This document shows, piece after piece, positions 10,025 through 41,800 of a stretch of 57,029 bases of DNA. A program made the position numbers and the translations under genes. The stretch spans positions 1-57,029 of the forward strand of contig JAQTUW010000001.1 in the NCBI GenBank assembly GCA_028707085.1, given 5' to 3'. Position 1 is the stretch's first letter; each line of letters starts with the position of its first letter. The DNA is from Methylococcales bacterium (lineage in GTDB: Bacteria > Pseudomonadota > Gammaproteobacteria > Methylococcales > Methylomonadaceae). Under the pieces are notes generated by a model. That model did not search any database and was not told where the DNA came from. It saw nothing but the letters and a program-made list of their open reading frames with translations.

Positions 10025-12383
10025 ACGAATGAAAGCATCACATGTCCTGGCATTGGCGCTATCGATGGCCGGTTGCGAATTCATAGGCCCGCAGATCCAT
10101 ACCAAGTTGCCGCTGCCTGAATTGGCGCCCCCCGAGGAAGGACTGACCAGCATTCCGGTAGATACCTCGGCGGACGAAAATAAAAAAACCACCAAAGTGG
10201 AAATTATTTCCGGCATTGAAGATGTCATTCCTTCGCAATCCCGTATCCTGAGCGCCGAAGCGGCGCACGGCAAGGGCGAATACAACCTGAATTTTGACGA
10301 TGCCGATTTGGGCGAGGTCGCCAAAGTGATTCTCAGTGATATTCTGGGCAAAAACTATAGTATCAGCCCCCAAGTGACCGGCAAGGTGACGCTGCAGACC
10401 AGCAAGCCGCTGAGCAAGGACGAGCTGTTGCCGACCCTGGACATGCTGCTGGGCATCAATAATGCGGCGTTGGTCAATCAAGGCGGCATGTATTTGATCA
10501 AACCGGTCGCCGACGCCGTTTACGACTCCCCGCTGCACGCGGCAAACATGCCTGCCGGCTATCAGGTGCGGGTGATTCCGGTCAGAAACGTGTCCGCCAG
10601 CGAAGTGGCCGATATTCTCAAGCCGCTGTTGCCTGAAAAAGCCCTGCTGCATGTCGATCCCAAACGCAACATTTTGCTGGTGGCCGGCTCCGGCAACGAA
10701 CTGAGCCGGGCTGTGGAGCTGGTCAACATTTTTGATGTGGATGTCCTGAAAGGGCGGTCGTTCGCACTGTTCACCCCGGCCCATACCGATGCATCCATCA
10801 TTATCGATGAACTTGAACAGATTTTTAATAATCATGCCGCCAGTTCAGGCGGCGGTAGCGCCGCCGGCGCAAAAAAGGAGAAAGAGACCGGCGCCGCGCC
10901 AGCTGCGGATAGCAACAGTTTTTACCGGTTCATCGAAATCAACCGCCTGAACGCTATTCTGGCCATTACCCGCAAACCGGAGTATTTAAAAGAAGTCGAA
11001 AACTGGGTGGTGCGTCTGGATAAAACCAATACCGCCGGCAAAGGCGGCGTCAATGTCTATCGCGCCCAGCACCATAGCGCCGTAGATCTGGCGCATACCT
11101 TGAGCAGTATCTTCGGCACAGCGTCGCAGGGTTCAGGCTCGGCTTCCATCGCCTCCGGTCGCTCGTCCTTGTCGGCGAGCAATAAATCGGGCTCGGGCGG
11201 TGGACTGGGTGGCGGACTAGGCGGCAGTAGCGGCGGCATGGGCGGCAGTAGTAGTGGTGGATTGGGCGGCAGTAGCGGCGGCATGGGCGGTGGCCTGGGC
11301 GGCGGCTTCGGTAGTTCGGGTGGCCAGGGCGGGCTATCGGCGCTGGGCAGCACTAGCGCTACCGGCAGCTTCGGCGGCGGCAATCTGTCCGGCGGCATGG
11401 CTGGCGGACAAGGGCAAAGCCTGATGCCCAATGTCAAAATCATTGCCGACGAAAGCAATAACGCCCTGATTATCGTCGGCAACAGCCAGGAATACGCCAC
11501 GATTATGAAAGTGCTGAAACAACTGGACGTTTTGCCCTTGCAGGTTTTGATAGACGCCACCATCGTCGAGGTGACCCTGACAGATAATCTGAAATACGGC
11601 ATCGAATGGTATTTTACCCACAATAACGGCGGCACCAATGTCATTTCCGGAGGCGATAGCACGAATTCTTTTACCCTGTCGAAAGTTGCCACCGGCGTCG
11701 CCAGCGGCGGTTTTTCCTATGCTTTTTCAAATGCCGGTCACAACATCGGCGCCCTGTTGTCGGCGGCGGCCACCAATAACAATATCAACGTCATCTCCTC
11801 GCCATCGCTGATGGTGTTGAACAATCAGGAAGCCGATATTCTGGTCGGCGATTCGGTGCCCGTTATCACCGGCACCACCACCAGCGGTTTGACCGGCGGC
11901 ACCAGCAACTCGATTCAGATGATAGACACCGGCGTCAGTTTATCCATCAAACCCAGAGTGAACGCCAATGGCCTGGTATTGATGGATCTAATGCAAAGTG
12001 TCAACACCGCCGTCCCGACCACGACGCTGTCAACCGGCACCAGCGGCGCGATTTCCACGCCAACCATTCAGAAAAGACAGATCGGCACCAGCGTGGCCGT
12101 GCAGAGCGGTGAAACTATCGTGCTGGGCGGGCTGATCAGAGAGGAAAACGACTTTAATCGTAACGGCGTACCGCTATTGCATGAAATTCCTTATATAGGG
12201 CCGTTATTTGGCGGCACCACCCGCAATAATGACAAAACCGAGCTGGTGGTGCTGCTGACGCCGCGGGTCATGAAAAGCCGCCAGGACGCTCAGGATGTGA
12301 CCGAAGAATTCAAGCATAAACTGACCGGCATTTACGACGAGAGGATCCCGGTTACAGCCGGAACAGCAGCGGAGCAGGAGTAA
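10014..12383 (+). CDS. gspD: Type II secretion outer membrane secretin GspD
   Basis: GspD (789 aa from the ATG at 10014) forms the outer membrane channel. An open frame begins earlier (9873), but the upstream 47 codons only shadow gspN. ATGs at 10014 and 10029 give a short signal peptide ending in SMAGC, which suggests a lipoprotein secretin. N0-type sequence (YNLNFDDADLGEVAKVILSDI) is followed by N1-N3 modules (VRVIPVRNVSASEVADILKPL, FRFIEINRLNAILAITR-like). The C-terminal secretin domain shows IDATIVEVTL, SIKPRVNANGLVLMDLMQ and GETIVLGGLIRE. A Gly/Ser/Met repeat of about 45 residues interrupts the N3 region, as described separately. It is the last gene of the operon. Confidence 0.95.
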   Translation: MIVKRMKASHVLALALSMAGCEFIGPQIHTKLPLPELAPPEEGLTSIPVDTSADENKKTTKVEIISGIEDVIPSQSRILSAEAAHGKGEYNLNFDDADLGEVAKVILSDILGKNYSISPQVTGKVTLQTSKPLSKDELLPTLDMLLGINNAALVNQGGMYLIKPVADAVYDSPLHAANMPAGYQVRVIPVRNVSASEVADILKPLLPEKALLHVDPKRNILLVAGSGNELSRAVELVNIFDVDVLKGRSFALFTPAHTDASIIIDELEQIFNNHAASSGGGSAAGAKKEKETGAAPAADSNSFYRFIEINRLNAILAITRKPEYLKEVENWVVRLDKTNTAGKGGVNVYRAQHHSAVDLAHTLSSIFGTASQGSGSASIASGRSSLSASNKSGSGGGLGGGLGGSSGGMGGSSSGGLGGSSGGMGGGLGGGFGSSGGQGGLSALGSTSATGSFGGGNLSGGMAGGQGQSLMPNVKIIADESNNALIIVGNSQEYATIMKVLKQLDVLPLQVLIDATIVEVTLTDNLKYGIEWYFTHNNGGTNVISGGDSTNSFTLSKVATGVASGGFSYAFSNAGHNIGALLSAAATNNNINVISSPSLMVLNNQEADILVGDSVPVITGTTTSGLTGGTSNSIQMIDTGVSLSIKPRVNANGLVLMDLMQSVNTAVPTTTLSTGTSGAISTPTIQKRQIGTSVAVQSGETIVLGGLIREENDFNRNGVPLLHEIPYIGPLFGGTTRNNDKTELVVLLTPRVMKSRQDAQDVTEEFKHKLTGIYDERIPVTAGTAAEQE
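11197..11335 (+). repeat. Gly/Ser-rich coding repeat inside gspD
   Basis: The N3 part of gspD carries a low-complexity insert made of glycine, serine, leucine and methionine. At the DNA level a 26-base unit (GGCGGCAGTAGCGGCGGCAT plus GGGCGG) occurs exactly at 11220-11245 and again at 11265-11290, 45 bases apart. Looser copies lie around it. All units are multiples of three, so copy number can change without a frameshift. A glycine-rich N3 insertion loop is known in secretins, but this one is unusually regular. Confidence 0.85.
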
Positions 12384-12442
12384 TGCCCGCCAGTCAAGCC
12401 GGTGATGAGGCGGCCGGGAAATGGGGATGCTCCGCATATTGC

Positions 12443-12470
12443 GACTAAAGCTGACGCCCGGTCTTTAGTC
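12443..12470 (+). other. Inverted repeat after the type II secretion operon
   Basis: GACTAAAG (12443-12450) and CTTTAGTC (12463-12470) form a perfect 8-bp stem with a 12-base loop, 60 bases after the gspD stop. No U-run follows on the plus strand (the next bases are CAAAAATAAAAAG). It is therefore not a classic terminator in that direction. It may be an RNA processing signal or a protein site; function is unknown. Confidence 0.4.
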
Positions 12471-12593
12471 CAAAAATAAAAAGCAATTTACTTTTATCCG
12501 TTTTTCTCCTGATAATTAACCACCATGGACTGGGGGCTTTTTCCGGACAGCGGATTGCAGTCGATGGCGGCTATAATGGTCGGCAGGCATGTC

Positions 12594-12630
12594 TGTCCGG
12601 TCTGCGCTTGCCGACCGGACAATAATTTTT
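12594..12630 (+). terminator. Probable intrinsic terminator between gspD and the glycosidase gene
   Basis: TGTCCGGTC (12594-12602) pairs perfectly with GACCGGACA (12613-12621) across a 10-base loop. It is followed by ATAATTTTT (12622-12630). A 9-bp GC-rich stem followed by a T-rich tract is the form of a rho-independent terminator. It would end the type II secretion transcript. Its position also argues against starting the glycosidase at 12589, because that start would put this hairpin inside the coding sequence. Confidence 0.6.
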
Positions 12631-12648
12631 AATTCTGAAGAAGCCGCC

Positions 12649-14898
12649 TTGAAACTTATATTGTATTTTTATATTTTTTTCCTGTTTCTCCTGCTGGGGC
12701 CTGCCGTGAGCGCACAAGAAAATAATGAGCCGGTTGAAACCAGGGTCGGCAAGCTGCTGGCGCAGATGACGCTGGAAGAAAAAATTGGCCAGATGACGCA
12801 GATCGATTTTAGCGTCATTTCAGTTGAAAACGGTCAGGATGCCGACGATCCGGTCGATCAGGCAAAGCTGGACGATGCGCTGTTCAATTACCATATCGGC
12901 TCCATTCTCAATGCGCCGACCACGCCCAACAACAAGGCGCAGCCCATCGAAAAATGGCGCAACCTGACCCAGGTTATCCGCGATACTACGTTCAGAACCA
13001 GGCTGCAAATTCCAGTCATATACGGCATAGACGCCATTCACGGCGCAAACTATACTAGGAACGCGGTACTGTTTCCGCAGGCCATCAACATGGCGGCCAC
13101 TTTCGAACCCGAGCTTTCCTTTCAAGAGGGCAAGTTTACCGCCAAAGCCGTCAAGGCTTCCGGGCTGGACTGGAATTTTGCGCCGGTCATGGATATAGGC
13201 CGTCAGCCGCTATGGCCACGGCTTTGGGAAACCTATGGCGAAGACGTGCATCTGGTGGGCGCAATGGGCGAGGCGTTCATAAAAGGCCATCAGGCTGACG
13301 ATTTTTCCGCGGCGGACAAGGCGCCGGCCTGCTTAAAACATTTTGTCGGTTACAGTTTTCCTATCAACGGCAAGGACAGAACCCCGGCCTGGATAGGCGA
13401 GAGAATGTTGCGCGAATATTTTCTGCCCGGTTTCGAGGCCGGGGTAAAAGCCGGCGCGGCTACCATCATGGTCAATTCCGCCGAAGTGGACGGCATTCCC
13501 GGCCACGCCAATTACAAGTATCTGACCGGCATTCTGCGCGAGGAAATGGGTTTTACCGGTTTTACGGTTTCCGACTGGGAAGACATCATCCGCCTGTACA
13601 GCCGCGACAAACTGGCGGCGTCGCCCAGTGAAGCCGTGAAAATTGCGGTGATGGCCGGGGTTGATATGAGCATGGCGCCGTTTAATTATTCCTTCTACGA
13701 TCTGCTTCTGCAACTGGTAAAAGACGGTGAAGTGCCGCTTAGCCGGATTGATGAGGCGGTGTCGCGCATCCTGCGGGTGAAGTTTCAAAGCGGTCTGTTT
13801 GATCGCCAGCAACCGGCGCTGGCTGCGGCGGACAATTTCGCCAGCCGCGAGGCGGTCGAGCTTAACCGGCGGGCGGCCAGGGAATCCATCGTTCTGGCTA
13901 AAAACGACGGGCAATTGTTGCCGCTGCCCAGACAGGCCAAGGTTTTGGTTACCGGGCCTACCGCCAATTCCCTGAGCGTGATGAACGGCGGCTGGACGAT
14001 CACCTGGCAGGGCAACAAGGACGAGCTGTATCCGCAGGACAAGCCCAGTCTGTATAGGGCTCTGCTGGAAAAGGCCGGCGACCGGGTCAGTTTCGTCGGC
14101 GGCAAGCGGTTTGAGGATGAAATCAATATCGAACAGGCTGTTAGCGAAGCGCGCAACAATGATTATATTATTCTGGCGCTGGGCGAAAAACCCTATACCG
14201 AAACTTTGGGCAATATCGAAACGCTCGACCTGCCTCCGCCCCAGCTTCAGCTCGCCAGAGCCCTGCAGGCCACCGGCAAGCCCATCATTCTGGTGACCTT
14301 TGGCGGCAGGCCGCGGATCATCACTGAAATCGCCAACAATGCCGCCGCCGTGGTATTGGGTTTTCTGCCGGGCATGGAGGGTGGCATCGCGATGGCCGAC
14401 ATCCTGTATGGCGATGTCAATCCCAGCGGCAAGCTGCCGATCACCTATCCCCGCGATACCAATGGCATTACGCCTTACGACTATAAACCCAGCGAAGAAT
14501 TTGAAAGCAACCGTTACTGGCCGCTATACTCTTTTGGTCACGGTTTAAGTTATACCCGTTTTGAAACCAGTAATTTGCAATTGGATAAAACCAGTATCGC
14601 CAATGGCGAGGACATCAATGTTAGCGTCAAGGTCAGAAACACCGGCAATCTGACCGGCAAGGAAGTGGTGATGGTGTATCTGCATGATGTGGCGGCTTCC
14701 GTCACCCGTCCGAACCGGCAGTTGAAAGCCTTCAGGAAGGTTGAGCTCAAAGCCGGCGAGGAACGAACCTTGCTGTTCACCCTGACTTGGCGCGATATGT
14801 CGTTCATAGGCGTGGATATGCGGCGTATCGTGGAGCCCGGCGAATTCAGGGTCATGGTCGGCAATGAAACCGCCACTTTTAGCGTTGTGAAAAATTGA
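12649..14898 (+). CDS. Secreted glycoside hydrolase family 3 (beta-glucosidase-like)
   Basis: A 749-residue family 3 glycosidase, probably periplasmic, that removes terminal glucose or related sugars from beta-linked oligosaccharides. I favour the TTG start at 12649: a GAAG-rich ribosome binding site precedes it, and the product then begins with a clean signal peptide (Lys, then LILYFYIFFLFLLLGPAVSA, cleaved before Gln). An upstream ATG at 12589 would add 20 residues over a terminator hairpin. The N-terminal barrel shows LTLEEKIGQMTQ-type sequence, IPVIYGIDAIHG, CLKHFVGY and the nucleophile motif GFTVSDWEDI. The C-terminal domains contain GFLPGMEGG, SGKLPITYPR, SFGHGLSYTRFE and a fibronectin type III-like end. 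Length agrees with BglX-type enzymes. The following sugar permease suggests joint uptake. Confidence 0.9.
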   Translation: MKLILYFYIFFLFLLLGPAVSAQENNEPVETRVGKLLAQMTLEEKIGQMTQIDFSVISVENGQDADDPVDQAKLDDALFNYHIGSILNAPTTPNNKAQPIEKWRNLTQVIRDTTFRTRLQIPVIYGIDAIHGANYTRNAVLFPQAINMAATFEPELSFQEGKFTAKAVKASGLDWNFAPVMDIGRQPLWPRLWETYGEDVHLVGAMGEAFIKGHQADDFSAADKAPACLKHFVGYSFPINGKDRTPAWIGERMLREYFLPGFEAGVKAGAATIMVNSAEVDGIPGHANYKYLTGILREEMGFTGFTVSDWEDIIRLYSRDKLAASPSEAVKIAVMAGVDMSMAPFNYSFYDLLLQLVKDGEVPLSRIDEAVSRILRVKFQSGLFDRQQPALAAADNFASREAVELNRRAARESIVLAKNDGQLLPLPRQAKVLVTGPTANSLSVMNGGWTITWQGNKDELYPQDKPSLYRALLEKAGDRVSFVGGKRFEDEINIEQAVSEARNNDYIILALGEKPYTETLGNIETLDLPPPQLQLARALQATGKPIILVTFGGRPRIITEIANNAAAVVLGFLPGMEGGIAMADILYGDVNPSGKLPITYPRDTNGITPYDYKPSEEFESNRYWPLYSFGHGLSYTRFETSNLQLDKTSIANGEDINVSVKVRNTGNLTGKEVVMVYLHDVAASVTRPNRQLKAFRKVELKAGEERTLLFTLTWRDMSFIGVDMRRIVEPGEFRVMVGNETATFSVVKN

Positions 14899-26168: not shown

Positions 26169-28604
26169 TCAATGCTGGTGAACATTATTGATATGGTTGT
26201 TTTGAACTGCTGTTGTTTTAGAATCGCCTGATTCGGCAATATGGATAGTCGCCATCATGCCGCCATCTTCATGCTCCAATATATGACAATGGAAAACAAA
26301 ATCGCCTGCAATGGCGAAGGGAATGTCCACATCAACAGCCGATGTTTGGCACGCGCCGTTTCTCCATGCGACGACTGTACCGTCGCAACCATCATCCCCG
26401 GTTGGCATGGGTACGCTGTCCTGAAGTATTCCGCTGTCATTCAGGTCTGAAGCCATCCCCGCAATTTCGCCCTTGGTTAAAACTCGAAACTTGGTTTGAT
26501 GTATATGAAAATTATGATCCTCGCCTGTCAGATTGATCACTTCCCAATGCTCATGGACGGGGGTGTCGCCTGTTCCTAATGGCAGGCAAATCGTTTGCGA
26601 GGCATTCGGAAATGCCGAGACATCCTGGAACGTACCCGGTACCGCAACCCCATGTTGATCGACCAGTTCAAAACCGATGCCGAAATTGGTGCTGAGAGGA
26701 TAGCCGAAGAAAATGCGGCGCTTCCAGCCTGTTGGCAAGGGCTGACAGGCAGAGTCCGGCCCGACTTCCTGATTGGCCGCAGCCAGTTCTTTAGCGATTG
26801 CGTTGATTTTGAGACCTGTCGCGTCATGTTTTTTATCCAACACCTTCAGCACGGGGCTATTCTGAAAAAAGGCGCCGCCAGAAAACGCAACCTGCGCCAG
26901 ATGGACGGCAGGCCAGTTATCGCCGTTCCACCCGGTAGAATAGCCGACAGTTTGAAATATTGCCTGGCTGCCGTCCGCCTTGATCATTTTGCCCTGCGCA
27001 TCGCGATTGACCACCCAGACTTCGGCTCTGCTGGCGGGCATCATATGCAGACTGGTCGCACAAATAGCCGCCGGCGTTTTGGCTGTTACGCCCGGACAGG
27101 CGATAGGGCGGAATTTTGCGCCGCCGATTTGCTTTAGATCGCCTTGGGAAATACCCGTGGACGGCGTCACGCTAATACCGTCTATCGACAGCACCTGGAT
27201 TGCCATGCCCGTTTCCGTAGCGGATTTGCCATTGAGACTTTTAGTCAGTTGCAGCTCATACGTCGCACTCCCGGATGCATTGGTTATACGCCATATTTGC
27301 CCCGCCGAGCCGACTGTAATGGCCGGATTCAATTGACCATTCACGGTGAAATACCATTTGCCGCCATTATCGCCATCGCATAGCCCGGCAGATGCCGATG
27401 GCGAGGTACAGAAATCCGGATCTTCCTCATCGTTGACGCTTTTATCGCCGTTGACCTGAATATCCTTGAGAATCAAATGCCGGACGGGGATGTTGCCGGG
27501 CAAACCCGGCATATAGTCATTCACCTTGCCCAGGGTGATGATGCCCGACAAACCGGCAGTGACCTGATTCAACGAAATGCCGTGCGCATGCGGATGAAAC
27601 CAGTACAAACCGGAAGGATGGCTGTCGGGTATCTTAATCTGGTAATCCGTGGCGTCGGTTCGCACATCGCCATGTATATGCGAGGCTGGGGTAATATCGG
27701 GCGCGCCGTTGGCCGAATTAAAGGTTAACACGAAAACAGTGTCGCCAAAGACAGGGTTGGTCGCCGTCGCAGAAGGCAAACCGGGCGAAACCAGCATGCC
27801 ATGAGTATGAATATTGGTTGGGTTTTGAGCCAAAAACTCTTCGTTTGGTTCTTCGCTATGCGAGGAATCCACGATCCTGGGCAACTGGTTGACGAAATGA
27901 ATGTTCAAGGTGTCTCCCGGATTGAGCTGCAAGCGGGCGCCGCCGTATGGATTCGGATTCGACATACCAGGCTGACAGGCATTGCCCAGGCTGTATTTAC
28001 GCTCGCAAATTTCATACGCCCAGCCGGTAACGCCGGGTATTGCGGCAATGCTCGTCGGCTTTGCGACCATCAGCAGGTCAAGCGTGTGTTTGGCTGGATG
28101 ACTGGCGAAAGTCGGCGGCTCGACCAGCTCTACGCTATGGGCTACTAACTGGTACACTAATGGCGTGAAGCTGATTTTCGCATTAGAAGGGTTGCTGAAC
28201 TCAATGGGAACGCTGAGCGATGCGCCGGGAGCGAGCGGCGATTTTTGATAAATAAACGGGAAGCCGTCGTGCTGTCCATCTGCATTGGTATTATTGACGC
28301 CTGGGGTAAGGTTGCTGAGTTGTATGGCAAGCGGGCCGGAAATGGCGGCCGCCTTGCTGAGGTTGGCAATATTCACGGTTCCGGCATACAGTTTTGTCGC
28401 TCTGTTATAAACGATCCTCGAGAAGGTGACGCTGACCTGATGGCTGACATCAAGGAATTGAGAGGCAGGCAGTATCGATGCCCCGTCGGAATTGGCGTAA
28501 CAAACATGGCCGCCGGCAGACAGTTCAAAAGCGCCGCCCAGCGATGCGGCCATGATGGCAACAGCAAGCCTGGCGGGCAAGGGATTTATGAAAGTTTTTA
28601 TCAT
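26169..28604 (-). CDS. Large multicopper oxidase with N-terminal beta domain
   Basis: I take the ATG at 28604 (811 aa); a TTG at 28649 would add 15 residues before the signal peptide. After the signal (about residues 1-35), a beta-rich domain of roughly 110 residues contains VTFSRIVYNRATKLYAGTV and PLAPGASLSVPIEFSNPS, a fold seen in bacterial surface proteins. Then comes the oxidase, with all copper motifs: HTHGM (266 onward), FHPHAHG (336 onward), HEHWEVINLTGEDHNFHIH and FHCHILEHEDGGMM (771 onward). It therefore should bind type 1 and trinuclear copper. It follows the VPLPA-CTERM gene after 52 bases in one operon behind a Fur box. Substrate (Fe(II), Mn(II), Cu(I) or a phenol) cannot be told from sequence. 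Confidence 0.88.
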   Translation of the reverse strand: MIKTFINPLPARLAVAIMAASLGGAFELSAGGHVCYANSDGASILPASQFLDVSHQVSVTFSRIVYNRATKLYAGTVNIANLSKAAAISGPLAIQLSNLTPGVNNTNADGQHDGFPFIYQKSPLAPGASLSVPIEFSNPSNAKISFTPLVYQLVAHSVELVEPPTFASHPAKHTLDLLMVAKPTSIAAIPGVTGWAYEICERKYSLGNACQPGMSNPNPYGGARLQLNPGDTLNIHFVNQLPRIVDSSHSEEPNEEFLAQNPTNIHTHGMLVSPGLPSATATNPVFGDTVFVLTFNSANGAPDITPASHIHGDVRTDATDYQIKIPDSHPSGLYWFHPHAHGISLNQVTAGLSGIITLGKVNDYMPGLPGNIPVRHLILKDIQVNGDKSVNDEEDPDFCTSPSASAGLCDGDNGGKWYFTVNGQLNPAITVGSAGQIWRITNASGSATYELQLTKSLNGKSATETGMAIQVLSIDGISVTPSTGISQGDLKQIGGAKFRPIACPGVTAKTPAAICATSLHMMPASRAEVWVVNRDAQGKMIKADGSQAIFQTVGYSTGWNGDNWPAVHLAQVAFSGGAFFQNSPVLKVLDKKHDATGLKINAIAKELAAANQEVGPDSACQPLPTGWKRRIFFGYPLSTNFGIGFELVDQHGVAVPGTFQDVSAFPNASQTICLPLGTGDTPVHEHWEVINLTGEDHNFHIHQTKFRVLTKGEIAGMASDLNDSGILQDSVPMPTGDDGCDGTVVAWRNGACQTSAVDVDIPFAIAGDFVFHCHILEHEDGGMMATIHIAESGDSKTTAVQNNHINNVHQH

Positions 28605-28656
28605 GATATGCAAGCGCCTCGGTTTTGATATTGAATGCTTTTTGATCAAGGATTTT

Positions 28657-31890: not shown

Positions 31891-34800
31891 CTATCCACCC
31901 CTCGCCGCAGCCACTAAATCCCCACTCACATCCTTTTTCAGCATTTCATATACCACGGCAAGAAACAGGTCGCGCGTTACTTCATCGCTTAACAGCTTGG
32001 TTGCCAGACTTTGGTGGGTGTTCATAGCTTCGACAATCGCAGCGACCGTGGCGGCAGGCAGATTAGCTTTCATGGCTTGATCGCGGCTATTGTTTTGTAC
32101 CTGGGCCATGACGATGGCGTCGTCGCGCAGTTTTTCCGAGACATGTACTGCAAAGGCGACTTTGTCCCTGTCGCTAATGTCTTTGCCGAAGGCGTCGTTG
32201 AGTTTTTCAATCAGTTCCGACAGATATTTCTTTTCCCGATCTCGAGCATCGCGCAAACCATTGTCAGTAATACCATAGAGTTCTGGTTGTTCCTCTCCTA
32301 TGCCGACTCCTGTCAGCGTTCCGCCTTTGCTGGTTTTATAGTGCGTCAGCGTCAAATCGCCCAAGTCAACTTGTTCAGGGGCAATGCCTTTCAAGCGTTT
32401 GCGTAATAGACGGGCGTAACAGGCAAAGGCCTCCAGCTCAGGATCGGCAAAGTCCACCAGTTGCGCCACATATTCGTAGGTACGGACAAACTTGGATAGG
32501 CTCTCGCTAAAGATCATCAGTGCATCGCGGGCCTTGGTCTGTTCCGAGCGCTGAATATCGGCTTCCGCCATGGCTTTTTCGTCACCGGCATCCTTAGCGA
32601 TGCGCCAGGCTTCATCCCACTGGTCTATGGCGTCATTCAGCGCTTTCAGTTTTCCGTTAAAGCGGTCGGTGGCCGGTTGCGTTAAAGAATACAGCTTCTG
32701 GTGGGTAACGTATTGACTAACAACGGCCTCGCCAAACGCCTCCACTTCCTTGGCTTCATATAGATACATGCCATCCAGACGCTGCTTGATGTCATAAACG
32801 ATGTTCGGGTCCTGCACATCGGCGACCTGGGCATCGCGGTAAAAGGTTCTGAACGCCGCCAGGATTTCTTCGGCTTTATTGGCAAAATCCAGCACAAAGG
32901 TTTTATCCTTGCCTGGATAGGTCCGGTTCAGACGAGACAGGGTTTGCACAGCTTCCACACCGGAAATTTTCTTGTCCAGATATAGGGCGACCAGTTTAGG
33001 CTGATCAAATCCGGTCTGGAATTTATTGGCGACGATCATCACCTGATATTCCTGCGTGGCAAATGCCTTACGCATGTCCCGGCCCTTGAGACCCGGATTC
33101 ATATTGGTTTCGTTGAACGGGTGCTTTTCGGCATACTGGCCGTCCAACACTTCCTGGTTCGGCACCTCGCCGGAAAAAGCCACCATGGCCTGAATATTTT
33201 GATAGCCTTTACTCTGACAATATTTTTCCAGGGCCAATTGGTATTTCACCGCCGAAGCGCGAGAAGAAGTCACCACCATTGCTTTGGCCTGACCGCCCAG
33301 CAAGTGGGCGACATTGCTGCGAAAATGCTCGACGATTAGCTCCACCTTCTGCGCGACATTGGTTGGATGCAGCGACAGCCACTTGGCCAGCGCCCGTTTC
33401 GCGCTTTTTTCGTCGACACGTTGATCGGATTGCTTGGCAAATTCGGAACCGATACGTAAGGCCACGTCATAAGTGGTATAGTTTTTCAGCACATCCAGGA
33501 TAAAACCTTCCTCAATGGCCTGCTGCATGGTGTACAGATGAAACGGAACCGGGGGATTGTCTTTGGCAGGCGGCAGCTCCGGTTTAAGCGGTCGTCCGAA
33601 CAGACTCAACGTGGAATGCTTGGGTGTTGCGGTAAAGGCAAAATAGCTGGCATTGCCGGGACGTTGCCGGGAAGACTGCCACACCGACAGCTTTTCCTCT
33701 TTGCTGAGCTTTTCCCATTCCTCTTCGCTCTGTCCGGTCAGCACATAGCGCAGGTCATCCGCCGTGCTGCCGCCGGTGGAGCTGTGCGCCTCGTCAATAA
33801 TGATGGCGAAACGCCTGTCGCGCAGACTTTGTTCGGCCAGGATCAGCTTTTGGGCATGCGGAAAAGTCTGCAAAGTCACCACAATAATCGGCGTACCGCT
33901 GAGCATAGCCTCCGCCAATTGCTGGCTTTTCGGCTTGCTTGAGGTCTGCCGGTCTATCGCGCAGACCACGCCGGTTTGATGTTCAATCTGAGCGATAGCA
34001 TCCTGTAGTTGTCTATCCAGCACGGCACGGTCGGTGACGACGATCACGCTATGAAAATAAGGTTCGCCATCCGCTTGCCGCACTCGAATCAAGGCATGCG
34101 CCATCCAGGCGATGGTGTTGGTCTTGCCGGAACCGGCGCTGTGTTGGATCAGATAAGGTTGACCCGTACCTTCCAGGCGCACAGCATCCACCATTTTCGT
34201 CACGCCTTCCCATTGGTGAAAACGTGGGAAGATCAGGTTTTCCTTGAAATAGGTTTTACCCAGCGCATTCTGCTCTTCCTTGCGCTCCAGCAGCACAAAA
34301 CGCTGGAATATCCGCAGCCAATTATCCTTTTGCAACACCCGCCGCCAAAAGTAGCTGACCGGATAGCTGCCGTTATCGCCGGGCGGATTACCTGCCGCGC
34401 CGTCGTTGCCGCGATTAAACGGTAAAAAGAATGTGGAGTCGCCCGCCAGTTTGGTCGTCATGCGAATGTCGCTATCGCTCATGGCGAAATGCACCACCGC
34501 TCCCCGCTTAAAAGTCAGTAAAGGTTCGGCGCGGCCGGTTTTTTCGTGCTTCGGCGGCCTGTCCATCCGGTATTGTTGCATCGCCGCCTGCACCGACTGG
34601 GTGAAATCGGTTTTCAGCTCCACGGTGGCAACCGGTATGCCGTTGATGAAAAACGCCAGATCGATCTCGTCACCCTTGTCCAGGGAATAGCGCAGTTGCG
34701 GCACTACCCGCAAACGGTTGGCGACGTAACGTGTCAACACGGTCTGGTTTCGATCATCCTCCGGCAAAGCCTGACTCATCGCCAAGGTACCGCCACCGGC

Positions 34801-35082
34801 CATGGCAAAACCATCACGCAATACATGCACCGTGCCGCCGTCTTTACTCGCCAGGGTTTTCACCAATCTATCCAGTACGGCGGCCTCGGTTCCGGCGCCA
34901 TTCAGGCTAGTGAGCTTAGCCCAAGCTTGGGGTTGGCTTTCTTGTAACCAGCCGATTACATCTTCCGGAAACAGCGCACGGGCTTGATCATAGCCGCTGG
35001 ATTTGCCGACCAGCCAACCGGCTTCAGCCAGTTGTTCGACTATGTGGCGTTCCAGTTCGCATTCGTGATGGATTTGGCTCAT
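31891..35082 (-). CDS. hsdR: Type I restriction endonuclease subunit R
   Basis: HsdR (1063 aa) is the motor and nuclease of the type I restriction complex. An N-terminal PD-(D/E)xK nuclease is visible, with Asp141 (KGDEIDLAF), Glu155 and Lys157 (VATVELKTDF). The superfamily 2 helicase follows: Walker A SAGSGKT (315-321), DEAH (430-433), FAFTATPKHSTL, and later MIVANKFQTGFDQPKLVALY and TLSRLNRTYPGKD. The C-terminal part is the helical HsdR C domain. It is the last gene of the hsd operon, 23 bases after the DUF1016 gene, and has no obvious damage. With hsdS interrupted it should be unable to find its targets. Confidence 0.95.
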   Translation of the reverse strand: MSQIHHECELERHIVEQLAEAGWLVGKSSGYDQARALFPEDVIGWLQESQPQAWAKLTSLNGAGTEAAVLDRLVKTLASKDGGTVHVLRDGFAMAGGGTLAMSQALPEDDRNQTVLTRYVANRLRVVPQLRYSLDKGDEIDLAFFINGIPVATVELKTDFTQSVQAAMQQYRMDRPPKHEKTGRAEPLLTFKRGAVVHFAMSDSDIRMTTKLAGDSTFFLPFNRGNDGAAGNPPGDNGSYPVSYFWRRVLQKDNWLRIFQRFVLLERKEEQNALGKTYFKENLIFPRFHQWEGVTKMVDAVRLEGTGQPYLIQHSAGSGKTNTIAWMAHALIRVRQADGEPYFHSVIVVTDRAVLDRQLQDAIAQIEHQTGVVCAIDRQTSSKPKSQQLAEAMLSGTPIIVVTLQTFPHAQKLILAEQSLRDRRFAIIIDEAHSSTGGSTADDLRYVLTGQSEEEWEKLSKEEKLSVWQSSRQRPGNASYFAFTATPKHSTLSLFGRPLKPELPPAKDNPPVPFHLYTMQQAIEEGFILDVLKNYTTYDVALRIGSEFAKQSDQRVDEKSAKRALAKWLSLHPTNVAQKVELIVEHFRSNVAHLLGGQAKAMVVTSSRASAVKYQLALEKYCQSKGYQNIQAMVAFSGEVPNQEVLDGQYAEKHPFNETNMNPGLKGRDMRKAFATQEYQVMIVANKFQTGFDQPKLVALYLDKKISGVEAVQTLSRLNRTYPGKDKTFVLDFANKAEEILAAFRTFYRDAQVADVQDPNIVYDIKQRLDGMYLYEAKEVEAFGEAVVSQYVTHQKLYSLTQPATDRFNGKLKALNDAIDQWDEAWRIAKDAGDEKAMAEADIQRSEQTKARDALMIFSESLSKFVRTYEYVAQLVDFADPELEAFACYARLLRKRLKGIAPEQVDLGDLTLTHYKTSKGGTLTGVGIGEEQPELYGITDNGLRDARDREKKYLSELIEKLNDAFGKDISDRDKVAFAVHVSEKLRDDAIVMAQVQNNSRDQAMKANLPAATVAAIVEAMNTHQSLATKLLSDEVTRDLFLAVVYEMLKKDVSGDLVAAARGG

Positions 35083-35105: not shown

Positions 35106-36143
35106 TTACTCTATCAACTGCGCTCGTTCTCTTTCCAATTCGACGCGCAACTCTTCTTCGCTGGGCAGCACTAAGCGGTATTTACTGGCAAACAATTGTT
35201 CGTTACCTTGCAACACAGAATAACGCACCACCGAGGCATCTTTTTGCGAACAAAGAATAATGCCCACGGTTGGGTTGTCATCTTGGCCGCGCTTTAAATC
35301 ATCATACATGCGCACATACATATCCATTTGGCCGATGTCCTGATGGGTCAGTTCGCCGCGCTTGAGATCGAAAATAACAAAGCACTTCAGCAGATAATTA
35401 TAGAAAACCAGGTCGATATAAAAATCTTTGCTTTCGGTGCTGATGCGCTGTTGACGGGCGACAAAAGCAAATCCCTTGCCCAGTTCCAGCAAAAAACCCT
35501 GTAACTGATTCATCAGCGCTTGCTCTAACTCGCTTTCCAATACCGCGCCTGCGTTTGGTAAACCCAAGAATTCCAATACCACCGGGTCGCGGACAAACGC
35601 CCGTGGATGCGGGTCTAGCGCCCGTATGTTGGCAGACGCTTCCTGCTCCACGGCGGCTCTATCCTGACTGGCCAGCAAACGTTCGTAATACAGCGTACCT
35701 ATTTGCCGTTCCAGCGCCCGCGTTGTCCAGTTCTGGTTGGCGGCTTCATGCATATACCACTGGCGAGCAGTGTCGTTATCAACCCGCAACAGCAGTCGAT
35801 AGTGTGTCCAGTTCAATTCGCGACGCACTGCGTCGCAAATTGGAAAAGCGATATAGAATCCGCGCATATGCCGCAAATTGGTGGCATCAAAGCCTTTGCC
35901 GAATTCATGAGTTAAGCCCTGGGCCAAAGTTGATAACAACCGTTTGCCATAAGCTGCCCGCGCTTCGCCACCTTGCTCAAACTCGACAATATGCCGTCCC
36001 AACTGCCAACAGGTTTGCACTTGCAGATTATCCACAGTGCGCAAGGCCTGCTGACGTGCTTGACGGATCAACTCGCCCAGATTATCCAGCAGCGTTTGCA
36101 ATTGCGGGTCTTTGCCGGTTGACGGGATCAGTTTGTCGCTCAT
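35106..36143 (-). CDS. DUF1016 (YhcG-type) PD-(D/E)xK nuclease family protein
   Basis: A 345-residue protein of the DUF1016 family. The N-terminal domain (about 20-160) includes LRHMRGFYIAFP and LNWTHYRLLLRVDN, the conserved helical region. The C-terminal nuclease domain carries DFYIDLVFYNYLLKCFVIFDLK (Asp at 253 region, DLK lysine) and GQMDMYVRMYDDL, matching the PD-(D/E)xK pattern of this family. Such genes commonly lie inside type I restriction operons, and their role there is not settled. The ATG overlaps the hsdS stop by 4 bases; hsdR follows. It appears intact. Confidence 0.88.
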   Translation of the reverse strand: MSDKLIPSTGKDPQLQTLLDNLGELIRQARQQALRTVDNLQVQTCWQLGRHIVEFEQGGEARAAYGKRLLSTLAQGLTHEFGKGFDATNLRHMRGFYIAFPICDAVRRELNWTHYRLLLRVDNDTARQWYMHEAANQNWTTRALERQIGTLYYERLLASQDRAAVEQEASANIRALDPHPRAFVRDPVVLEFLGLPNAGAVLESELEQALMNQLQGFLLELGKGFAFVARQQRISTESKDFYIDLVFYNYLLKCFVIFDLKRGELTHQDIGQMDMYVRMYDDLKRGQDDNPTVGIILCSQKDASVVRYSVLQGNEQLFASKYRLVLPSEEELRVELERERAQLIE

Positions 36144-36595
36144 ATTGCTTCCCGCAGATCGATCTGACCGGTGACAGCGGCGGTAATCAGGGCGCTGCGG
36201 CGTTCCTTGAGGAGTTCAATGCTGCGTTCGGTTTTGGTGATCAGGGTGTTAAAACGTATGATATTTTCCCTAATGTAAGAAGTTAAATTAATCTGTTCTG
36301 ATAATGGAGGAAAAGGAAAGCGATATTGTCTAAATTTGTCAGCGGGTAAATGCGCAATTGTCGCTTTAGCATCTGATTCTTCAAACACGGCTCTTTCCTT
36401 AGCAGTTACAAGAGAAAAGTATAAAAACTCGGCAGTGTCGTTTGCAACTGATCTGGGGCGAAGTCGATGTAGCGCCTTTTGAAACCCTATCTGTTGATTG
36501 CAGCCTCTCCAAATAGCCGCACGGCCCACATCTCCACCTTCACATACGAGTAAATCACCCAATTTGACGGTATACCGATCAATTTCTATTTTATA
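36140..36595 (-). pseudogene. hsdS: hsdS, 3' part cut off by an insertion sequence
   Basis: This is the C-terminal part of the specificity subunit, holding most of the second target recognition domain and the last conserved helix (IELLKERRSALITAAVTGQI). Reading back toward the insertion, codons for KIEIDRYTVKLGDLLVCEGG run without a stop to the target duplication at 36591-36595. The frame matches the 5' part at 38252-39138: joining at one copy of TTATA gives ...MDIYKIEIDRY... and a total of 446 codons including the stop. A Met inside it (36562) could give a 140-residue product, but it has no evident ribosome binding site. Confidence 0.9.
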
Positions 36596-36611
36596 CCTGA
36601 ATCCGTGACTT
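36596..36611. repeat. IS terminal inverted repeat, left
   Basis: CCTGAATCCGTGACTT, preceded directly by the target duplication TTATA (36591-36595). Confidence 0.92.
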
Positions 36612-36812
36612 CAGTTGTTGCGATAAAATTCATCTGTGCTCATTAAAAAAATAGCAGTCAATTTGTCCAATTTCCAGAGGGAAAATAGTTTGGCCGTTCC
36701 ATTCTCGGGTATTTTCCGGCGATTATTGGCTGAATATGCGCCATTTGTTTTCTGTTGACAAGACTCTGCCTACGGCGGCAGGTGTCGCCGTTATCAAACG
36801 GGTGGGTTTGGA

Positions 36813-38147
36813 TTAGCCGGCGGCTAATTTAGCATAGGTGGCCTCGAAAGCCTTAAAACCCGCGCAGGCAGCGGAAAACCGCAGTTTCAGACGACGACCT
36901 GTTCGGATGATCCTCGCAGCCAGGTACATGAGTTCCTGCATCACCGTTTTGATGCGCCGCCGTTTGGCTGGATGTCTGACTGGACTGATGTCGCCGAGTA
37001 AGCCTATCAGGCCTATCCAGCGCAAAATGTTGTAGCTGTAGGCGCTCAAGGTCATAATCAGATCGTTGGTGGCGAATTTGCCGGAGGGCAGGCGCTCAAT
37101 GTTCAGATCGGTTTTGAATTCACTGTGAAATTGTTCGGCGGTGGCATGATCTCGGTACAGGGCGATGATGTGTGCGTCATCGTAGTGTGCTTGATCCAGA
37201 GAGGTCCACCAACCTTGGATTTCGATGTCGGGTATCAGTAGCATTTGGCCGCTGGCGGTGGTGGTGCGTTCAATGATTTGCATGACGCGGCGGAAACGAT
37301 AGGCTTTATCGCCACGGGTCTGTTGTTCTTCCACGCTGAACAATGCAACGCGCTTGCCTTCTCGTGGGCTTGTCCATTGACCTTGTTGTTCGGCTTTCGC
37401 TAACCAGGTTTCAACGTCTTGTTTGCGCGGATTCCATTTCAGAATGAAATTGACCTGCTCGTCACCGCTCAGCCAGATGCGGGTGTCCAGTGCATCATGA
37501 CCGCTATCCAGGCGCACCAGCAATGGCTTATCGGTCAGACGTTTGGCGGCAGGAATGACACGTTTCAGAGTATATTGAAATTCGGATTGGCAATGCTGTT
37601 TGCCTACTCTGAGTTCATTGGTCAGACACCAGCCTTCGTTACCCAGATAGGCGGCTATCGGTGCATAACCGTCATAGCCTTTGTAGGTTCTGGAGATACC
37701 TTCCTTGCGGGTCTTCTCGTTGTTCATGGGGTAGACATCCATATCCAGTGCAACGTGACCGGTTTTTAATGGGGTGACCGGGACTTGTGCATGGACCAGG
37801 AAGTCGATATTGCTGTTATAGACAATCGGCAATAATGCTTCGGCATGCTCATCCAGGCGTTGTCTGAGACGGGCAGTTGAGGGGACTTGCTGAATGGATA
37901 GGGATGATTTGAAATACAAGTCGTGACGATAGTTTTCAATGGCTTCAAAATCGCTTTTCCCCAAGCATAAGATCCCCATATAGGATTTGATAAGGTCGCT
38001 GTGGGCTATGCCGTGTCGCAAAGGGATGCCGGCTTTCAGGGCGTGATTAAGATTTCCATACCGATTTAGACATAAACCCACCAAGGCTAATCCAGAATGG
38101 CTAGTATAGATTTCGGATTCGGCTTGTTCGAGGATAAAATGTTTCAT
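36813..38147 (-). CDS. IS1380-family transposase
   Basis: A 444-residue DDE transposase. The N-terminal part has LVGLCLNRYGNLNHAL and the DLIKSYMGILCLGKSDFEAIE block typical of IS1380 members. The catalytic domain shows VALDMDVYPMNNEKTRKEG (first Asp), LLVRLDSGHDALDT (second Asp) and a late HATAEQFHSEFKTDL (Glu). Length matches the family. The start at 38147 is 104 bases inside the element's right end. The gene lies in the same direction as the hsd operon it interrupts, so read-through into the downstream hsd genes is possible. Confidence 0.93.
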   Translation of the reverse strand: MKHFILEQAESEIYTSHSGLALVGLCLNRYGNLNHALKAGIPLRHGIAHSDLIKSYMGILCLGKSDFEAIENYRHDLYFKSSLSIQQVPSTARLRQRLDEHAEALLPIVYNSNIDFLVHAQVPVTPLKTGHVALDMDVYPMNNEKTRKEGISRTYKGYDGYAPIAAYLGNEGWCLTNELRVGKQHCQSEFQYTLKRVIPAAKRLTDKPLLVRLDSGHDALDTRIWLSGDEQVNFILKWNPRKQDVETWLAKAEQQGQWTSPREGKRVALFSVEEQQTRGDKAYRFRRVMQIIERTTTASGQMLLIPDIEIQGWWTSLDQAHYDDAHIIALYRDHATAEQFHSEFKTDLNIERLPSGKFATNDLIMTLSAYSYNILRWIGLIGLLGDISPVRHPAKRRRIKTVMQELMYLAARIIRTGRRLKLRFSAACAGFKAFEATYAKLAAG

Positions 38148-38235
38148 GGCTCACTCAACGGGTGAAATTGTATTGAGCCTATTTTACAAAATTATGCCTT
38201 TTAAATCATGTGTATAGAGGTGTTTTTGTGATTTT

Positions 38236-38251
38236 AAGTCACGGATTCAGG
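38236..38251. repeat. IS terminal inverted repeat, right
   Basis: AAGTCACGGATTCAGG, the exact reverse complement of the left end, followed directly by the second TTATA (38252-38256). Confidence 0.92.
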
Positions 38252-39138
38252 TTATAAATATCCATTTCCGGTAAATCATCAGTATTGATGTTATCCCATT
38301 GAACATCTTGATTTCGAAGGTAAGGAACTAAGCTTTCTCCAGTAATACGTTTTTCATCCAACATTTTTCCTAAATCAATCGAGTAGCGGAAGCTGAGTTT
38401 GCATACAACCCAATGCTCCGGCACATCCCCCAGCCATTCCACGCCGGAATCCTTCATCTTCACATTCGGGTCAAGTCCCTTGGTAACTGCATGGGTAATC
38501 AGCGCCTGCCGTTTCTCGCGCAGCAGCTCGATGAAGCGGGTTTTCTTGCTGACTAAGGCATCAATGCGGGCGGTTTCGCAATCTAAATGAAACGAGACAG
38601 ATCGTTGTTCCTCAATAAGTGGCCAAACAGCCTCAAAATTGCGTGTAAATTCATCTGGAACTCGTTTGAGTCCACCAGCTCCAGTCATCGCACCCTTGCC
38701 AAACGCACGGAAACGATTACTTTGCACAAGGTAATTTAGAAAACGAGCATCAATTCCATCTTTAGGGCGCAAAACTGTTAATTCGGTAGTGCCAAAGCCT
38801 ACCCCACCAAGTAGATTACGAAAAAGAGTCCCTTTTCCATTTTCGAAACAAGGTGTGACCTTGGCGAAGGCTACATCATCGTTTTCAAAATAAGAGTAAC
38901 CATTGCGAACATCCGCTACTGTCCGTGTTTGTTCTAAATTTAATGATCCATCTTCACCGATTGATTCCATCGGGATAAACGACACCTCAGCATTTGAATC
39001 AACGAGAAGCTCTGCTTTAATAGAAGGATTGAGTTGCGCTGCATAGCGTAGTCGCTTCACCCTCCAATGCTCAGGCACCACCCCCAACCACTCCACTCCA
39101 GAATCCTTATAAGCCGGATAAGGCCGATAATGGCTCAT
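38252..39138 (-). pseudogene. hsdS: hsdS, 5' part cut off by an insertion sequence
   Basis: This encodes the first target recognition domain and the central conserved helix (FIELLREKRQALITHAVTKG, about 200-219), then the beginning of the second domain. The motif KDSGVEWLG.VPEHW occurs twice, at about 11 and 229, marking the two-fold design of HsdS. At the insertion the frame runs into the element and stops after four foreign codons at 38239, giving a 299-residue truncated protein. Its ATG lies 2 bases after the vapC stop. A truncated HsdS with one full domain can in known cases dimerise and recognise a palindromic site, so some function is not excluded. Confidence 0.92.
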
Positions 39139-39140
39139 GC

Positions 39141-39560
39141 TCAGGTAGATGGAGAAAAGGGATTGAGTAGACGAACCCCGCTACGCTCGACATCCCTCAC
39201 ATTACGGGTGACCAAAATCAGATCGTGCTCAAGCGCTGTTGCAGCAAGCAAACCATCAATAACCGGCAGGGCATCCGGTACATTGTTGCGCCCCCAGCGT
39301 TCGGCAATGGCGGTGGACACTGGAAGCAACCGCTCGGCCATAGCCGACTGTACTTTCGCCATACGCGCTTCCAACCGGGTAGCTTGCTCAGGATCACGGC
39401 GACGAAGACGCTCTATCCCTTGACGAATCTCTCCAACCACCAGCACAGACAAGAAAAGTTCATTACTGTTGGTATTGTTGTACCAGAGCAAGACGTCCGG
39501 ATTAGCTTTCTGGCCTTTCTGCAATTCGGACAGAATATTGGTGTCGATTAAATATCCCAT
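39141..39560 (-). CDS. vapC: PIN-domain ribonuclease toxin, VapC type
   Basis: A 139-residue PIN-domain protein. Acidic active-site residues are visible in MGYLIDTNILSEL (Asp6), LVVGEIRQGIERL (Glu43) and PVIDGLLAATALEHDLILVT (Asp101 region), followed by TRNVRDVE (last Asp). VapC toxins cut tRNA or rRNA when freed from VapB. Its start overlaps vapB by 13 bases and its stop is 2 bases before hsdS, so it is built into the hsdM-hsdS operon. The active site looks complete. Confidence 0.88.
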   Translation of the reverse strand: MGYLIDTNILSELQKGQKANPDVLLWYNNTNSNELFLSVLVVGEIRQGIERLRRRDPEQATRLEARMAKVQSAMAERLLPVSTAIAERWGRNNVPDALPVIDGLLAATALEHDLILVTRNVRDVERSGVRLLNPFSPST

Positions 39561-39775
39561 TGGACTGGTTCCCTGCCCGAATCGCGCGGACGCATCAAGT
39601 CCTCCTCTGTCAGGCCATCGGTGAGAGTTGTCAATAGCGTCTTAACATCCGAAACAGATTCAGGCGGACGGGCTTCGATGAGTAACAATACCCGGATGGG
39701 CACCCCATCTGGAACTGTTTCCGGTATTTTTATGCTGTGTTGATAAGCGGTTGCTTCAAATTCTATGGCTTGCAT
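39548..39775 (-). CDS. vapB: Antitoxin of the VapBC pair
   Basis: A 75-residue protein from the ATG at 39775, which has a GAGGAG site about 8 bases upstream. A longer frame to 39805 would include that site. The sequence MQAIEFEATAYQHSIKIPE, then VPDGVPIRVLLLIE, looks like a small antitoxin with an N-terminal beta-type DNA-binding part and a C-terminal LTEEDLMRPRDSGRE region that would bind the toxin. Identification rests mainly on its 13-base overlap with the PIN-domain gene. It may also act as repressor of the downstream operon. Confidence 0.75.
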   Translation of the reverse strand: MQAIEFEATAYQHSIKIPETVPDGVPIRVLLLIEARPPESVSDVKTLLTTLTDGLTEEDLMRPRDSGREPVQWDI

Positions 39776-39871: not shown

Positions 39872-41800
39872 TCACGCCGTCACCTCATTCAATAGCGCGG
39901 CAATTTCCGCTTCCACGGTTTTCAAATCAGAGTCTATATCCGCCAGCTTGCGGGGCGGCTGGTATTGGTAGAAGTAGCGATTAAAGTTAATTTCGTAACC
40001 GACTATGCCGATTTGGCCGTCTTTGTCGTCGCGTTTGCCGTCATCTATCCAGGCATCCACCACATGCGGCAATACTTCGCGGGTAAAGTAAGCATGGATA
40101 TCCTGATTGAGCGGCACGTTTTCATTTTCACGCAAATCGGGATCGGCCAGCGGTTTGCCATCCGTGTCCTTGACGATTTCCGCCTCCGCACATTTAGTGC
40201 CGAAACAACTCAACACCGCTTTTTGCCCGGCTTTGCCGAGTTTTTTGATGTTGGCGGCTTTTAAAAAGCCTGGTAAATCGTCGAAATGTTCGGCCTGTTC
40301 CAATAAAGCGGCGAAAGCCTCGCTCTGTTCAGCGCCTTTGGCCGCGCGGTACACAGCCAGATTTTCGGCGTTGACTGTAAAGCGCAAGCGTAATGGCCGT
40401 TCCACGGTAATGCGGCGGTAGCCGAAATCGGTGGTATTGAATATTTTACTGGCCGGGGTTTCGGCAAACCCGTCATGCAGGCGGGCGATGTCGGCAATCT
40501 GTGCTTCCGACAGCAATTTGCGTTTGCTGCCCAGTGATTTGCGCATCGCCGAATGCATGGCAGTGGCGTCGATCAGTTGCACTTTGCCTTTGCGTTTGGC
40601 GGTTTTGTGGTTGCTGAGTATCCAGACATAAGTGCCGATACCGGTGTTGTAGAACAAATCATTGGGCAGGGCGATAATGGCTTCCAACAAGTCGTTTTCC
40701 AGTATCCAGCGGCGGATTTCCGATTCGCCGGAACCAGCGCCACCATTAAATAGCGGCGAGCCGGACAGTACGATACCGATCCGGCTGCCGCCTTGGACGA
40801 CCGGCTTGCGCTTGTGCAGCAAGTGCAGCAGGAACAATAGCGAACCGTCGCCGACGCGCGGCAGGCCAGGGCCAAAACGGCCGCCGAAACCCAATTGTTT
40901 ATGTTCGTCCTGAACGGCTTTTTGCACATTCTCCCATTTCACCCCAAAAGGCGGATTAGCCAGACAATAATCGAACTGCTCATGCGGCAGCAGGTCGTTG
41001 GACAGGGTGTTGCCGAGCTTGATGTTTTTGGTGTCGTAGCCCTGGATCAGCTTGTCGGCCACGGAAATGGCGTAAGTCTCCGGATTGAGTTCCTGGGCGT
41101 AGGGGATCAGTCGGGCGTTTGGGTTCCATTCGTAGACTTGCTCAATGGCCGAAGACAGAAAGCCGCCGGTGCCGGCGGCACAGTCGTACACGGTGCGCAC
41201 CACGCCCTCACCGTTCAGTGCGTCATGATCGCTGGCAAACACCAGAGTGGTGACCAGCCGCACCACGTCGCGCGGGGTAAAGTATTGTCCGGCGTCGTCG
41301 TTGGACGATTCGGCGAATTTGCGGATCAGGTGTTCGAAGATCAGTCCCATTTCGTGGTTGCTGATCACGTCGGGATGCAGATCGATGGTGGCGAATTTCT
41401 GCGTGACCAAATACAACAGATTGGCTTTTTCCAGTTTCTCCAGCCAGCGATCGAAGGCGAAATGCTCGAATACCTGACGGGCGTTGCCGGAGAATTTGGC
41501 GATATAGTCTTCCAGGTTGGCACGGGTGCTGGTTGAGCCGACAGTTGCCAGGCTGAATTCAGAAATATTGTAGAAACTGGCTAGAGCGGTATTGGGCAAT
41601 ACCAGATCCAGATCAACCGGTGAGCCTTTTAACCCGGCATATTGTTGCTGTACTTGCTTGCGAGTCGGCTCCAACACGCATTCCAGACGGCGCAACACGG
41701 TAAATGGCAGGATGATGCGACCGTATTCAGACGGTTTGAACGCCCCTAATAACAAATCGGCGATATTCCAGATGAAAGGGGCAAGGTTTTGTTGGTTCAT
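39872..41800 (-). CDS. hsdM: Type I restriction-modification methyltransferase subunit M
   Basis: HsdM (642 aa) is the N6-adenine methyltransferase. An N-terminal helical domain begins LAPFIWNIADLLLGAFKPSEYG. Motif I is DCAAGTGGF (206 onward), GQYFTPRDVV (171-180) precedes it, and the catalytic motif IV is NPPF (282-285). It is the first gene of the hsd operon on the minus strand; vapB follows after 96 bases. The protein appears intact, but methylation needs HsdS, which is interrupted here. Confidence 0.95.
   Translation of the reverse strand: MNQQNLAPFIWNIADLLLGAFKPSEYGRIILPFTVLRRLECVLEPTRKQVQQQYAGLKGSPVDLDLVLPNTALASFYNISEFSLATVGSTSTRANLEDYIAKFSGNARQVFEHFAFDRWLEKLEKANLLYLVTQKFATIDLHPDVISNHEMGLIFEHLIRKFAESSNDDAGQYFTPRDVVRLVTTLVFASDHDALNGEGVVRTVYDCAAGTGGFLSSAIEQVYEWNPNARLIPYAQELNPETYAISVADKLIQGYDTKNIKLGNTLSNDLLPHEQFDYCLANPPFGVKWENVQKAVQDEHKQLGFGGRFGPGLPRVGDGSLLFLLHLLHKRKPVVQGGSRIGIVLSGSPLFNGGAGSGESEIRRWILENDLLEAIIALPNDLFYNTGIGTYVWILSNHKTAKRKGKVQLIDATAMHSAMRKSLGSKRKLLSEAQIADIARLHDGFAETPASKIFNTTDFGYRRITVERPLRLRFTVNAENLAVYRAAKGAEQSEAFAALLEQAEHFDDLPGFLKAANIKKLGKAGQKAVLSCFGTKCAEAEIVKDTDGKPLADPDLRENENVPLNQDIHAYFTREVLPHVVDAWIDDGKRDDKDGQIGIVGYEINFNRYFYQYQPPRKLADIDSDLKTVEAEIAALLNEVTA

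Follow-up and report, generated by a model that had tools for sequence, protein, structure and literature searches.

The window analysed here is a 57-kb stretch (positions 1-57029 of contig C8) from the draft genome of a Methylococcales bacterium (3.02 Mb, 73 contigs, 99.9% complete), which encodes an AMO/pMMO subunit (PF02461, 425.7 bits). It carries a type I restriction locus whose specificity gene, hsdS, is split by an insertion sequence (IS) of the IS1380 family. On the minus strand the genes follow in the order hsdM, a 75-aa open reading frame (ORF), a PIN-domain gene, the split hsdS, yhcG, and hsdR. The type I gene set of hsdM, hsdS, and hsdR is thus all present, but the one full-length two-domain HsdS expected for a type I system is lacking, the gene being interrupted. 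It is almost certain that an IS1380 element transposed into hsdS and that the old specificity was lost with it; as an event, the insertion of a mobile element into hsdS is ordinary, a known kind in a new place.

The element spans 1656 bp (36596-38251, minus strand), with its transposase oriented as the hsd genes, and ends in 16-bp terminal inverted repeats, CCTGAATCCGTGACTT at 36596-36611 on the plus strand and again at 38236-38251 on the minus strand, which match each other at 16 of 16 positions. A target-site duplication, TTATA, lies on either side (36591-36595 and 38252-38256), and the span 36591-38256 reported in a preliminary description of this DNA corresponds to the element plus both copies. 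Across the window, the terminal 16-mer was found at two sites when up to three mismatches were allowed, both of them exact, whereas the mean expected by chance at this level was 0.45, and two such inexact matches arose in 8 of 100 shuffles. Target duplications of the IS1380 family measure 4-6 bp, and the family features present here comprise an IS1380-type DDE transposase, terminal inverted repeats, and a short target duplication. The transposase (444 aa, 36813-38147, minus strand) matches NCBIfam NF033539 with 328.5 bits (cut-off 180) and Pfam DDE_Tnp_1_4. Eight other full-length copies were available for comparison, two interrupted ones (L048 and L050) being left out: seven differ from it by at most one residue in length, the eighth has 452 aa, and 244 of the 444 aligned positions are invariant. 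The acidic residues D135, D137, D214, and E338, each a putative catalytic residue, are invariant in all nine proteins. The family assignment, perfect repeats, duplication, and intact transposase of the preliminary description were all borne out, as was its placement of the insertion within hsdS.

We searched 61 genomes (its own, 36 of the same genus, and 24 of the same order), and 16 of these, its own among them, had a match to the element at E ≤ 0.001. The draft genome itself holds a single full copy and four short weak matches elsewhere. A near-identical copy was not found among the 61 genomes, the best match outside the own genome reaching 91-93% DNA identity in a same-genus genome, G022; another IS1380 match, on the second contig of the same-genus genome G002 (110821-111185), has the coordinates of one on plasmid NZ_AP019778.1 of Methylomonas koyamae, and the genus is accordingly taken to be Methylomonas. 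Nine stretches with related elements (L046-L054) were fetched, five of which together contain six elements with both ends, while the other four show one end at up to three mismatches. The same 16-mer terminates these related elements, and AT-rich direct repeats of 5-6 bp (TTGTT, TGATA, GTTAAA, ATTAA, and TATTT) flank five of the six; the sixth (L051) has no flanking direct repeat. Same-genus copies (in G022, G027, G005, and G029) resemble the window element in their 16-bp ends (at most one mismatch where both were found), in transposases 78-94% identical, and in their AT-rich duplications, and differ from it in DNA identity, which is 91-93% at best (G022). One copy in G022 (L048, 294-2232) measures 1939 bp; its 16-bp ends are perfect, its target duplication reads TTGTT, and approximately 280 extra bases split its transposase into two open frames.

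The insertion point lies after codon 295 of hsdS, within the second recognition domain (TRD2). When the flanks are joined with one TTATA, 887 and 451 bases meet in frame to give 445 codons plus a stop, i.e., the 446-codon restorable gene previously proposed, and both hsdS parts are still open reading frames. The 5′ part (38239-39138, minus strand) encodes a 299-aa product made of 295 native residues and four codons read into the element before a stop. With domain limits drawn by hand, it includes a complete TRD1, the central helix (D1), and ~47 residues of TRD2. The 3′ part (36140-36595, minus strand) holds the rest of TRD2 and the C-terminal helix (D2); the idea that this remnant provides a complete second recognition domain was rejected, as the element contributes an in-frame stop at 36613, and the first start after it, TTG at 36562, is already within TRD2. 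Structure prediction for the 299-aa product, based on an alignment in which 29 of 39 viral-contig loci were used (duplicates and cut or odd loci were left out), gave a complete N-terminal domain and a complete dimerisation helix with good confidence, followed by a disordered tail; a second viral-contig scan yielded a single distant relative. Judged by its sequence and by this monomer model, the product would possess what defines a half-S subunit, namely a single recognition domain that is complete, together with a dimerisation helix. An ungapped alignment of D1 and D2 covers 52 residues, 21 of them identical, and scores 94, the highest score in 1000 shuffles being 47. Both recognition units also start with a 45-bp direct repeat (38410-38454 and 39064-39108, 84% identical, 654 bp apart), and recombination between these repeats might exchange domains.

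Comparison with related loci indicates that the gene was whole before the insertion. On both sides of the insertion point, the interrupted TRD2 aligns colinearly with the first HsdS domain of two Pseudomonas relatives (L007 and L011), with identities of 79-81% 5′ of that point and 63-65% 3′ of it, and recognition units occupy the first or second position depending on the relative. HsdM was detected at E ≤ 1e-200 in 3 of 37 genus genomes: its own, G022, and the more distant G026 (55%). The G022 locus, the one near allele available for comparison, encodes proteins 96.9% (HsdM), 92.9% (PIN), and 97.7% (HsdR) identical to those of the window. Its hsdS is uninterrupted, with 430 codons and other recognition domains than the window gene, and the situation named beforehand as contrary evidence, in which all related strains carry the element at the same place, was accordingly not encountered in this allele. 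Six of eight named relatives (L006-L011) have a full-length hsdS of 431-453 codons; in the remaining two, a contig edge precedes hsdS (L012) or only hsdS fragments are found (L013). The latter locus (10001-13515, Stutzerimonas kunmingensis BUN14) consists of a second hsdM copy, a RhuM/Fic-type ORF, hsdS fragments, and an hsdR tail only, and looks like a decayed copy beside the intact locus L009 of the same genome. Elsewhere in the genus, several HsdS-like matches whose open frames span no more than 254-346 codons (one of them containing a TGA) occur at G011:C1:4339513, G015:C127:105543, G018:C1:2344980, and G008:C12:53951, and shortened hsdS genes may be commoner in the genus. No published report of the window locus was found among literature titles and the opening parts of abstracts.

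The age of the insertion is weakly bounded. With 16 pairs from the repeats and 5 from the duplication, all 21 of them matching, no more than a divergence above ~13% is excluded at 95%, so that the recent origin previously proposed is plausible within that bound. Relative to G022, dN/dS is 0.044 for hsdM, 0.130 for the PIN gene, and 0.044 for hsdR, values which mostly reflect time before the insertion. A locus already in decay was considered and rejected, since these three genes are open with low dN/dS.

HsdM (642 aa, 39872-41800, minus strand) has NPPF at residue 282 and matches the M subunit of EcoR124II at E 8.7e-25 over residues 152-438, with entries 7vru, 3khk, and 3lkd scoring higher. HsdR (1063 aa, 31891-35082, minus strand) combines an HSDR_N domain with a Walker A motif (GSGKT) and DEAH; it scores 159 bits against TIGR00348, under the cut-off of 284, and has five Pfam matches over cut-off (SWI2_SNF2, ResIII, T1R_D3-like, HSDR_N, and DEAD), and its match to EcoR124 HsdR is confined to residues 644-729. 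Both genes are intact with their motifs. No type I system besides this one was found in the draft genome. Complementation by another S subunit of the same genome was rejected, as only pieces of the window hsdS were found, and a second N6-methylase match was limited to one weak hit on contig C1 (20.4 bits, at the cut-off). Between hsdM and hsdS lie a PIN-domain toxin-like gene (39141-39560, minus strand) and, just upstream of it, the 75-aa ORF (39548-39775, minus strand), antitoxin-like by position only. Because hsdS directly overlaps the hsdM end in the six full-length named relatives, and a PIN gene occupies this junction in the window and in G022 (L046, 4627-5052), the toxin-antitoxin-like pair (39141-39775) seems to have entered the junction. 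Directly downstream of hsdS, a YhcG/DUF1016 PDDEXK nuclease gene (35106-36143, minus strand; PADLOC candidate PDC-S02) fills a position which varies between relatives: a YhcG/DUF1016 nuclease is also found in L007 and L011, a DUF4357 gene in G022 (L046, 6338-7318), and ORFs of 310-315 aa with similar starts in L006-L010, L007 holding both kinds. This position looks like an exchangeable accessory slot within one type I family. Scans for Rfam families and tRNA genes found nothing in the window, and terminator and promoter scans remained near chance level. Further along the minus strand, an 826-aa protein (26169-28649) has no Pfam match at E 1e-10 and resembles multicopper oxidases only weakly in NCBIfam (62.9 bits).

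What the insertion did to the system beyond removing its old specificity is a closer question. An asymmetric two-part specificity cannot come from the single HsdS chain of the interrupted locus, and the original specificity is thereby lost. The earlier suggestion that restriction is switched off goes further and was not borne out; inactivity does not follow, since TRD1 and the dimerisation helix are kept and hsdM and hsdR are intact. We give about an even chance that the half-S forms an active enzyme and recognises a palindromic motif, a proposal that draws on the gene content, the structure model, and analogy with characterised enzymes. The element entered hsdS, duplicated TTATA, and ended the frame four codons past residue 295, leaving a putative half-S with TRD1 and a full D1 resembling the lost D2. 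Two copies could then pair D1 to D1, which this resemblance makes possible, and hold two HsdM subunits as M2(half-S)2. Such an enzyme would methylate an interrupted palindrome of TRD1 half-sites in place of the old motif and, together with HsdR if expressed, cut there. On this view the element most probably altered the target instead of only silencing the system. The D1/D2 resemblance and the occurrence of recognition units in either position favour this mechanism.

Published half-S enzymes offer precedents. They have been explained by the pairing of two copies of the first helix, and include EcoR124I delta50, a half-S with the target GAA N7 TTC, and the natural NgoAV (PMC3874165), as well as EcoR124INT, a two-copy half-S enzyme (PMC2877798). 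The D1/D2 resemblance in type IC was suggested as a possible reason why half-S works there (PMC3874165). EcoDXXI with Tn5 in its C-terminal domain is active on a palindromic target, TCA N8 TGA (Table 2 of PMC3874165). A Staphylococcus aureus half-S was made active on ACC N5 GGT, with 78.6% of motifs detected as modified; restriction was poor, a weakness that the study noted for other S. aureus systems in E. coli too (PMC6158711). The 299-aa product shares with EcoDXXI::Tn5, EcoR124I delta50, NgoAV, and CC398-1 the architecture of a whole N-terminal recognition domain followed by a dimerisation helix. The closest parallel in kind is EcoDXXI hsdS::Tn5 (Meister et al. 1993, via PMC3874165), in which the C-terminal recognition domain was likewise hit by a mobile element and the N-terminal domain and central helix remained, although there the palindromic specificity was measured while that of the window is a prediction, and Tn5 in a type IC system contrasts with IS1380 in a family not assigned to IC. 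In NgoAV of Neisseria gonorrhoeae, too, hsdS is split in nature and its first part by itself serves as the specificity subunit, but the split is a frameshift at a phase-variable polyG tract, whereas the window has an insertion sequence and no sign of switching (PMC9577141).

Several observations weigh against an active half-S enzyme. Homodimers were then reported for type IC only (PMC3874165), to which the window system is not assigned. An N-terminal HsdS half from Staphylococcus xylosus gave no modification, in a system with an unusual extra short HsdS (PMC10030836). All seven readable close relatives (L006-L011 and G022) have a full-length hsdS of 430-453 aa, and the family is thus not known to work with a half-S. 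The unfolded TRD2 piece on the modelled 299-aa product could be destabilising, a first structure model from 7 sequences was poor (pLDDT 38), and promoter-like sites (4 against 2.8 expected, sd 1.8) are barely above chance. The disordered tail, the S. xylosus case, and the full-length relatives would also fit plain inactivation, in which the fragment is unstable or cannot pair, HsdM and HsdR are left without a specificity subunit, methylation and cutting both cease, and the genes stand at a first stage of decay; the lack of another HsdS or a second clear HsdM in the genome as substitute, and possible polarity on yhcG and hsdR, both downstream of the element, point the same way. Against inactivation, the locus retains every component that a half-S enzyme requires, and EcoDXXI stayed active, on a changed target, after an insertion of this sort (PMC3874165). 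Inactivation is a strong contender that we rate a little short of even. With the D1/D2 likeness, units in both positions, and intact hsdM and hsdR, and published half-S cases going both ways, the two outcomes come out nearly equal, the active half-S enzyme being slightly favoured.

The reversibility suggested in the preliminary description is permitted by the perfect TTATA duplication, and has no positive support beyond that, while direct evidence against it is likewise scant; only the interrupted form was found in the assembly. A phase-variable switch, with precise excision at useful frequency and a population mixing full-length and split hsdS, would draw on this duplication, the in-frame join, and the intact transposase, and precise excision or alternating insertion has been reported for IS256 and IS492, going by titles in the references of PMC9296519. 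No adaptation for switching was seen, though, and in a sequencing survey ISEcp1, of the IS1380 family, was recorded with 3 transpositions, its junctions from circularisation or deletion numbering 0 (PMC5001619). This last argument is weak because deletion junctions numbered 0 for 15 of the 17 elements surveyed and one read each for the other two (PMC5001619). Overall, we consider such a switch very improbable. Still less credible, and hardly to be entertained, is an assembly or binning artefact: the genome is a draft of 73 contigs, but repeats, duplication, and reading frame are all consistent with one transposition, elements of this family, bounded by the same ends, occur in related genomes, and a collapsed repeat is unlikely since the element is present only once in full.

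Taken as a whole, the locus raises the possibility, tentative and somewhat less probable than its opposite, that a natural IS rewrote rather than abolished a type I specificity outside type IC, a palindromic half-site being methylated through a truncated-HsdS homodimer in a wild counterpart of EcoDXXI::Tn5. If the half-S is inactive, the locus would represent the routine loss of a defence gene to an insertion sequence, and the strain may be easier to transform. If it is active, one palindromic N6-adenine motif would be predicted from this locus, in a methanotroph in which it is the only detected type I system, and mobile elements could, in nature, give a restriction system another target in a single step.
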